Origin: Methanoculleus sp.
GTDB lineage: Archaea; Halobacteriota; Methanomicrobia; Methanomicrobiales; Methanoculleaceae
Assembly: GCF_030019085.1 (NCBI RefSeq)
Contig: NZ_JASEFJ010000018.1
Span: 1 to 37,437 of the forward strand
Direction of reading: 5' to 3'
DNA length: 37,437 bases
Shown: positions 9,268 to 28,908 of the stretch, in pieces
Layout of the letters: every line of letters begins with the position of its first letter
Position numbering within the stretch: position 1 is the stretch's first letter
Position numbers and translations under genes: made by a program
Notes under the pieces: generated by a model
The model's database searches: none
What the model was told of the DNA's origin: nothing
What the model saw: the letters and a program-made list of their open reading frames with translations, nothing else

Positions 9268-9512
9268 GCGGGCGATGCTGTCTGTCAGGCAACGCAGGGG
9301 CCAGACCGGTGGCGGCATAGACCCGATCCCGGGATACTGTTAAATCCTGCTATCCGGTAGAATAGGCGTATCTAAAAAAAGAGTTGCGTGTCTTGCCCGA
9401 CCAACGAGGTTCCAATCTCGGGGGGTAAGTCCTTCCCGAAATAGATGAGGCTACCCTGAGGTAGGTGGGACAAAGTAGGGAGGGTTTTACTAATTTATCT
9501 TTTGCGCCCTTC
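9268..9512. other. Gap before the right repeat copy
   Basis: No gene seen. The segment contains a few short self-complementary stretches (for example CTACCCTGAGGTAG at about 9451-9464) and a TATA-like TTTATCTTTT at about 9494-9503. That box sits about 25 bases before the ATG pair at 9523, as if it once drove the reading frame inside the repeat. Confidence 0.4.
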
Positions 9513-9567
9513 AAAAAACTACATGATGCCCGTTAGAGCTACAGGCATACCGGATGAAAATCGGGGG
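9513..9567 (+). repeat. Inverted repeat, right copy
   Basis: A 55-bp sequence matching the reverse complement of 1-55 with one mismatch. It contains ATG ATG followed by codons for PVRATGIPDENRG. Together the copies enclose about 9.5 kb containing the decayed genes at one end and largely gene-poor sequence at the other. No target duplication or transposase is seen. Confidence 0.9.
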
Positions 9568-9789
9568 TCATTTTCATACGAAAAATCGAGTGCGATCACA
9601 GTTCTGGGTTCTATAATGCTGTAGTGGACACAATCGTTCTCCCGGTAACGCCGGTGCAGCGCACCCACCACAAAATCTGCTGCCTACACGGTTCAGTCCG
9701 AGAGTCAACCTTCCAGGCAATTCCACCCGGCATCCATCACGCGTCATCCCCACCACCGGAGAACACCTCGATATGCGCCCACACCTCAA
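9523..9789 (+). pseudogene. Possible decayed pilin-like or exported protein
   Basis: From ATG 9523 the frame reads through the repeat into SYEKSSAITVLGSIML and then stops at TAG. If one base is shifted just before the stop, the frame continues VVVDTIVLPVTPV and stays open to the TGA at 9800. A polar leader followed by a hydrophobic stretch is like an archaeal type IV pilin N-terminus, but the match is weak and the downstream residues look random. A truncated or frameshifted relic is the most I can support. Confidence 0.25.
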
Positions 9790-9849
9790 ATTTCTGATTT
9801 ATTAGCACAATTGGAAATATTCATATTACCTGATCGACAACAAAACCGT

Positions 9850-27258: not shown

Positions 27259-27963
27259 CTACTCCTCGAAGCGGGAGAGAGCCTCTTTTGCCGCGGTCAT
27301 GGCCGCAGCCTGCTTCGTCCGGGCCCTCCCTTCTCCATAGGGGGTCCCACCGACGCTCACGCGTGCAACCCAGGTCGGGCAGTTCCCCGGACCGGTCTGG
27401 TGGAAGGTATACTCGAGGTCGCCCAGGCTCTCCCTTGAGACGTGTTCCTGGAGCCTTCCGCGGTAGTTCCGGTCTGTGTCGCAATCCGCTATCTCATCTT
27501 CAAAGATTGCGAGCACCACGTTCCTGGCCAGATCGAGGCCCCGGTCAAGGTATATCGCACCGATCAGCGCCTCGAAAGCGTCGGCGATGATCGAGTCCGT
27601 CAACGCCTGTCCCCGCCGTCTGACAACGCGGTCGATACCGAGCCCCTGCAACCGCACAATCTCGGCAAGTTTCGTGTTCCGGGTCACCTGGAGCCTCCGG
27701 TTCATCTCGCCCGGCGGGATTTCGTAGCCGGTGTAGAGGTGTTCGGCGATGATGAAGTCGAGGATGTAGTTCCCGAGAAACTCAAGCCTCTCGTTGTCCT
27801 CAGCCACCGCTGCGGGATACTCACCCCCGTTCGTATACGACCGGTGGGTCAGAGCCCTATCGTAGATGGCGATGGTATTGTCGTCGATTCCGGTGATCTC
27901 AAAAGGAGGGCGGGCGAGAAGTGCACGTAGTTCCTCTACACGATCGCGGCCTGGAGGGTCCAT
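27259..27963 (-). CDS. rnc: Ribonuclease III
   Basis: About 234 residues from ATG 27963. The N-terminal endonuclease domain (about 8-150) carries the signature NERLEFLG (57-64) and IIADAFEALIGAIYLD (125-140), followed by a C-terminal double-stranded RNA-binding domain (about 160-234, NYRGRLQEHV to AAAMTAAKEAL). By alignment with E. coli, E58, E61, D128 and E131 are kept, but the residue matching D45 is Asn (N65, codon AAC at 27769-27771). RNase III is uncommon in archaea. The frame is open upstream to 28179 without a convincing ribosome site, so the start is uncertain. The gene is cotranscribed with the DUF362 gene. Confidence 0.85.
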   Translation of the reverse strand: MDPPGRDRVEELRALLARPPFEITGIDDNTIAIYDRALTHRSYTNGGEYPAAVAEDNERLEFLGNYILDFIIAEHLYTGYEIPPGEMNRRLQVTRNTKLAEIVRLQGLGIDRVVRRRGQALTDSIIADAFEALIGAIYLDRGLDLARNVVLAIFEDEIADCDTDRNYRGRLQEHVSRESLGDLEYTFHQTGPGNCPTWVARVSVGGTPYGEGRARTKQAAAMTAAKEALSRFEE

Positions 27964-28158: not shown

Positions 28159-28908
28159 ATGCAGTCGGCAGGCAGACACGTCTACCTGGACATAGAGTTC
28201 GGTTACGTATATGGCACCTCAAGGGAGGTGATGATGCCGATCGAGATCGGTGCGGTCGTGCACCGACCCGAGGGCGAGAGTCTTAATTACGCGGCAGAGC
28301 AGTTCCGCTACGATCTCGAGGTCGAGATCTGGAAGAAAGTGACCGACTCCTGTGGCAGAACGGCCGGTGTCGAGACGACCGTCGCAAACCTGAGTCGAGG
28401 TGAGTGCGGGATGCCATACGACCACTCCTACCGACTCCCGGACGAAGAGGCTGCAAAGGCGCAGGAGACGGCGGAGATGGCGTTCACTGACCTGAGGTCA
28501 TTCCTGGAATCGATCGTCTCAGAGGAGGACAGCACAGCAATCATCGTCTTCGCGGCGAGTATGGAGAGACGGGCCTTCCGCGCCGCGGGGTTCTCCCCTG
28601 ACGGGTGTGCGTTTGTCGACCTGCAGCGGGAGATCCGTCGGGGTTTGAAGATGAAACAGGTCCTATCCCTGGACCGTCTGGCCAGCCTTATCGAGTTCTC
28701 GGTCGACGGTAGCACCATCTCCTCAGCCCATTTCCAGTATCCCGTCCCGCAGGGATATCGCAACCACTTCGGTGCCCACCGTGGACTGGGCGACGCCGCC
28801 CGGACTTTCCTGGTCGCACGCGAGTTCCAGGAGCATCTGCCGTATCTAAAAGAGCGCATCAGAAAGATGCTGGAGACATGCGGTGGAGATGGTGAGGAGG
28901 GTGGATAA
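28159..28908 (+). CDS. Divergent DEDDh-like exonuclease
   Basis: 249 residues. An ExoI-type DxE motif near the start (VYLDIEFG, D11 and E13), a weak ExoII-like stretch IIVFAASMERRAF (E126 where Asp is usual) and a late HRGLGDAAR (H207, D212) match the order and spacing of DnaQ-like 3'-5' exonucleases. The region between residues 25 and 110 is an insertion I do not recognise. It is transcribed divergently from the RNase III gene; the two start codons are about 195 bases apart. Its stop is 10 bases from the convergent moeA end. Nuclease activity is inferred from motifs only. Confidence 0.6.
   Translation: MQSAGRHVYLDIEFGYVYGTSREVMMPIEIGAVVHRPEGESLNYAAEQFRYDLEVEIWKKVTDSCGRTAGVETTVANLSRGECGMPYDHSYRLPDEEAAKAQETAEMAFTDLRSFLESIVSEEDSTAIIVFAASMERRAFRAAGFSPDGCAFVDLQREIRRGLKMKQVLSLDRLASLIEFSVDGSTISSAHFQYPVPQGYRNHFGAHRGLGDAARTFLVAREFQEHLPYLKERIRKMLETCGGDGEEGG

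Follow-up and report, generated by a model that had tools for sequence, protein, structure and literature searches.

An RNase III of Methanoculleus with a fixed Asn at a catalytic metal-ligand position, and a short Mini-III-like enzyme that co-occurs with it

The window, a stretch of 37,437 nucleotides from Methanoculleus sp. (assembly GCF_030019085.1, contig NZ_JASEFJ010000018.1, positions 1 to 37,437 of the forward strand), contains an RNase III gene at 27259..27963 on the minus strand. It encodes a 234 aa protein, with the ATG at 27963 and the stop codon at 27259. A nuclease domain (PF14622 and PF00636) is followed by a dsRBD (dsrm, PF00035, E 2.1e-9; residues 167-230; 27274..27465, minus strand), all matches being above the cut-off. 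Hence, the RNA-binding domain is kept, as the initial annotation had stated. The dsRBD loop reads GPGN, not GPxH, so that RNA binding is no more than plausible. The equivalog model TIGR02191 assigns 144 bits to the protein, compared to a cut-off of 166. PADLOC gives no recognition of this RNase III, and no Rfam families were found near its promoter. Upstream of the RNase III gene come a divergent and a moeA-like gene, downstream a DUF362/ferredoxin gene, and this order is kept across most of Methanoculleus. The divergent neighbour (28159-28908, plus strand; 249 aa), syntenic through most of the genus, remains without a match in Pfam up to E 1. It starts with HVYLDIEFG, which gives the impression, and only that, of an exonuclease fold. 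Elsewhere in the window, a DUF3800-X RNA (RF02984) was matched at 9419-9492 on the plus strand with 56.7 bits (gathering score 38.2). This match falls in 9268-9810, a stretch without an ORF of at least 80 aa.

The signature motif of the RNase III (residues 58-65; 27769..27792, minus strand) is translated as ERLEFLGN, in its longer form DNERLEFLGN. Asn65 is encoded by AAC (27769..27771, minus strand) and aligns with the Asp of the solved RNase III chains shown, which corresponds to E. coli D45. Both the deviation from ERLEFLGD and this assignment had been proposed in the initial annotation, and both are borne out: The alignment comprises 39 Asn-type, 50 archaeal Asp-type and 13 bacterial Asp-type rows, and Asp is found at the N65 position in all 63 sequences outside the Asn clade (50 other Methanomicrobiales and 13 bacterial). 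The further claim that the other ligands are kept holds for E58, E61, D128 and E131, the equivalents of E. coli E38, E41, D114 and E117 (D128 to E131: 27571..27582, minus strand), but not for two positions. At the position of E. coli E65, an acidic residue of the catalytic valley, the protein has Pro84 (27712..27714, minus strand), and at the E100 position it has Gln119, a residue shared by most of the archaeal family. At the E65 position, Glu occurs in 48/50 archaeal Asp-type and 13/13 bacterial rows, whereas Pro occurs in 38 of the 39 Asn-type rows. Tyr at residue 66 is exclusive to the Asn-type clade in the alignment. One helical turn past N65 lies Asp69 (27757..27759, minus strand), which corresponds to E. 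coli position 49. Here, all 39 Asn-type rows have Asp, 40 of the 50 archaeal Asp-type rows have Asn and 12 of the 13 bacterial rows have Asp or Glu. In E. coli numbering, this means Asn45/Asp49 in the Asn-type clade versus Asp45/Asn49 in most archaeal relatives. Roughly every second archaeal Asp-type row (L055-L087) has lost D114, mostly to Gly (26/50), and ten rows have Gln at E38. Judged from these alignments, archaeal RNases III often have an eroded active site, reached by routes that differ between lineages.

AlphaFold predicts the canonical helices and the dsRBD (pLDDT 85, pTM 0.65). According to Foldseek, the RNases III of Thermotoga and Aquifex, among them Aquifex D44N, are the closest solved folds, and next come mitoribosomal large-subunit chains (mL44), yeast Rnt1p and Drosha. 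Identity to bacterial RNase III amounts to 22-29% by fold alignment. A different placement of the two domains presumably accounts for the large rmsd over the whole chain. Pfam, AlphaFold and Foldseek agree on the class I layout of one nuclease domain and one subsequent dsRBD. With bacterial class I enzymes (E. coli Rnc, Aquifex, Thermotoga) the protein has in common the domains, the fold, the signature motif and the E38/E41/D114/E117 equivalents, of which E61, D128 and E131 represent the class I residues E41, D114 and E117 and are invariant. It differs from them by Pro at the E65 position and by Asn at D45: The metal-binding Asp of ERLEFLGD is replaced across the entire Asn-type clade. The dsRBD distinguishes it from Mini-III, a nuclease domain without dsRBD. 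Plant RNC1 is a non-catalytic RNase III protein. Like RNC1, trypanosome KREPB4-10 and mitoribosomal mL44, the Methanoculleus protein combines an RNase III fold with changed catalytic residues. However, the pseudo-RNases III of the KREPB/mL44 type have lost most catalytic carboxylates, whereas the Methanoculleus protein has four of them and a normal dsRBD and may still be active.

To determine the distribution of the substitution, 232 genomes of the order Methanomicrobiales were searched and the loci were then read directly. Asn is present at the D45 position in all 32 Methanoculleus orthologues read, in both species of the sister genus g3 and, within the same family, also in g5. In the 34 sequences from Methanoculleus and g3, the codon is AAC in 32 and AAT in two cases, so that a sequencing error does not account for it. 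The initial annotation had left room for Asp in the homologues. None is found within the protein's own lineage, while all other lineages do have Asp. Single genomes from two other families (G019, G098) also carry the Asn type, and three Methanoculleus genomes (G048, G055, G057) have extra copies, with the copy of G057 interrupted by a stop. On a tree rooted on bacteria, one Asp to Asn change suffices. Asn is the derived state because the bacteria, which lie outside, carry Asp. The Asn clade is again single (98/85; 98% of bootstrap trees) in a careful tree that was built after dropping long rows and masking residues 63-70, 83-85 and 128. Thus, Asn at the D45 position arose once, in the lineage leading to Methanoculleus and its family, and was then fixed. 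Repeated independent origins within the order are unsupported, since both trees show one change.

The Asn-type RNase III is under purifying selection. In the 34 sequences, pairwise dN/dS has a median of 0.22 (0.20 in the nuclease domain, 0.23 in the dsRBD), and 90 of 234 positions are invariant, among them residues 58, 61, 65, 69, 84, 128 and 131. Together with the kept gene order, the low dN/dS indicates that the gene is maintained and apparently vertically inherited within the genus instead of decaying. A sequencing error or a decaying pseudogene, for which nothing more than the rarity of the Asn residue could be adduced, is practically excluded by the 34 orthologues with Asn, their open frames, the synteny and the dN/dS of about 0.2.

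When 393 genomes of the archaeal phylum were scanned with a degenerate motif, the Asn type turned up in six genomes outside the order, which were then searched with PF00636. No RNase III domain was found by the PF00636 search in three of them (G240, G335, G458), and in two (G315, G327) the motif is located apart from the RNase III genes. The sole case within an RNase III domain is G414 from another family (L236, G414:C11 about 61337), a truncated 138-aa frame with ERLEFLGN-Y, which may have arisen independently or may be decaying. Among virus contigs, the ERLEFLGN-plus-TA pattern had no exact match. The five accessory Asn-type copies (L248, L249, L250, L251 and L252 in G048, G055, G019, G057 and G098, respectively) have neighbours of their own: type I restriction-modification genes and AAA/Cdc6-like ATPases in G019 and G048, DUF4062/RecG-C-like genes in G055 and G057, and GmrSD and Fic genes in G098. 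Their location in apparent mobile defence regions suggests that they spread with them. In two accessory copies (L040, L042), Asn occupies the D114 position as well as the D45 position, which makes for a more eroded active site.

This genome contains exactly one further PF00636 gene (G000:C57:17880-18347; L203; L001:1351-1821). It encodes a short RNase III of 156 aa, which has the PF00636 nuclease domain in common with the Asn-type enzyme, lacks a dsRBD and therefore fits the definition of Mini-III. The gene is located downstream of a peptidyl-prolyl isomerase-like gene, with which it overlaps by 4 bases. The short RNase III retains the D45 and E117 equivalents in the motifs HMDALATLGD and LAEC(L/M)EAL in 30 Methanoculleus genomes, and has Ala at the E41 and Glu at the D114 position. 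It is widespread in the order. Its co-occurrence with the full-length enzyme was counted in genomes at least 90% complete, which were classified by hand, with shared ancestry uncorrected. Among the matches listed, the short RNase III accompanies the Asn-type enzyme in 26 of 27 genomes and the Asp-type enzyme in 2 of 49 (8/49 when a second, divergent short type is counted as well), and it occurs in 45 of 56 genomes without any full-length enzyme. Like the loss of E65 to Pro84 and the clade-specific Asp69, the short RNase III and its rarity in Asp-type relatives go beyond the initial annotation. The Asn-type gene and the short RNase III gene are unlinked. The pattern of co-occurrence fits a division of labour between a full-length and a short RNase III, in which the loss of D45 would be tolerated because another RNase III cuts.

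What the substitution may do can be estimated from mutant enzymes. In the E. coli structure, Mg-B is held by D45 and E117, while D114 has no direct contact with Mg2+ (PMC9291653). In Table 1 of PMC8708148, the in vitro activity of E. coli D45N in excess Mg is given as 'weak'. Both D45A and E65A are dead in vivo, D45A still binds dsRNA, and E. coli RNase III mutants can keep binding after losing cleavage (PMC8708148). D45A is rescued by Mn2+ (PMC3839596). Drosophila Dcr-2 with both equivalent Asp to Asn changes, D1217N/D1476N, serves as the catalytically inactive form (PMC9279154). By its title, the Aquifex D44N structure 2EZ6 contains the product of dsRNA processing, which suggests that some cutting by D44N may be possible. 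The Aquifex and Dcr-2 mutants have the identical change at the identical position. However, they were made in the laboratory to stop cleavage, whereas the Asn of Methanoculleus is natural, old and fixed.

With slightly better than even chances, the protein is a cleavage-attenuated, dsRNA-binding RNase III under maintained selection, while routine cutting is performed by the short enzyme. The metal-B ligand, the Asp of the signature motif, was replaced once by Asn in the lineage leading to Methanoculleus and its family, and Asn was then fixed. The same clade lost the acid that corresponds to E. coli E65. By analogy with the D45N/D44N enzymes, the protein would still dimerise and bind dsRNA and would cleave slowly in Mg2+. 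Routine RNase III cleavage would be left to the short Mini-III-like enzyme, which has the D45 and E117 equivalents and is presumably active. The reduced cleavage put forward in the initial annotation thus stands by analogy, with the weak E. coli D45N and the inactive Dcr-2 form as its models. That these models are bacterial and insect enzymes counts against this explanation. Conservation of the remaining ligands argues against a plain loss of the metal site. The invariance of the four carboxylates suggests that the site still matters, which would fit slow cleavage but also a remodelled active site.

The latter is the main rival, possible but rather unlikely: a fully working enzyme with Asn65 as a neutral ligand. 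Compensation would come from Asp69, in combination with Tyr66 and Pro84 or with a metal such as Mn2+, and the enzyme would cleave its own substrates normally. The invariance of E58, E61, D128, E131 and D69 in the 34 sequences, the exchange of Asp/Asn in most archaeal relatives for Asn65/Asp69, the Mn2+ rescue of E. coli D45A (PMC3839596) and the product named in the 2EZ6 title for Aquifex D44N would all agree with such a site. On the other hand, excess Mg does not lift E. coli D45N above weak activity (PMC8708148), the E65 equivalent is lost as well, and the acid at residue 69 may be merely ancestral and not compensating, since 12 of 13 bacteria with Asp45 also have Asp or Glu at position 49. 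Next in rank, and improbable, is a pure dsRNA-binding protein without any cleavage, an RNA chaperone or competitor comparable to plant RNC1. Although Dcr-2 is described as catalytically inactive when it carries the same change (PMC9279154) and E. coli mutants can keep binding without cleavage (PMC8708148), the other catalytic carboxylates would be expected to drift in such a protein. Yet, they are invariant in the main orthologues, and D114 is changed to Asn as well in the two accessory copies L040 and L042 only.

The boldest alternative is a heterodimer of the Asn-type and the short RNase III, which would combine one working and one crippled site with a dsRBD and nick one strand of dsRNA, as in KREN/KREPB. 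Trypanosome editing complexes contain such catalytic/non-catalytic RNase III pairs, in which the KREPB partners lack key catalytic residues and which are so far apparently unique to kinetoplastids (PMC9508840). A short enzyme that keeps D45 and E117, lacks a dsRBD and accompanies the Asn type in 26 of 27 good genomes among the matches listed would be a suitable partner. Nevertheless, a heterodimer is very unlikely: The two genes are unlinked, and the short enzyme, alone in 45 of 56 genomes without a full-length enzyme among the matches listed, has no need of a partner. If such a heterodimer existed, prokaryotes would have a counterpart to the KREN/KREPB pairs of trypanosomes.

Archaea are often described as lacking RNase III. 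Here, one order has two kinds of RNase III, and one genus has fixed a substitution that is used to inactivate RNase III and Dicer, with the gene still under purifying selection. Methanoculleus thus offers a natural experiment on two questions: whether RNase III strictly needs D45, and what RNase III does for cells besides cutting.
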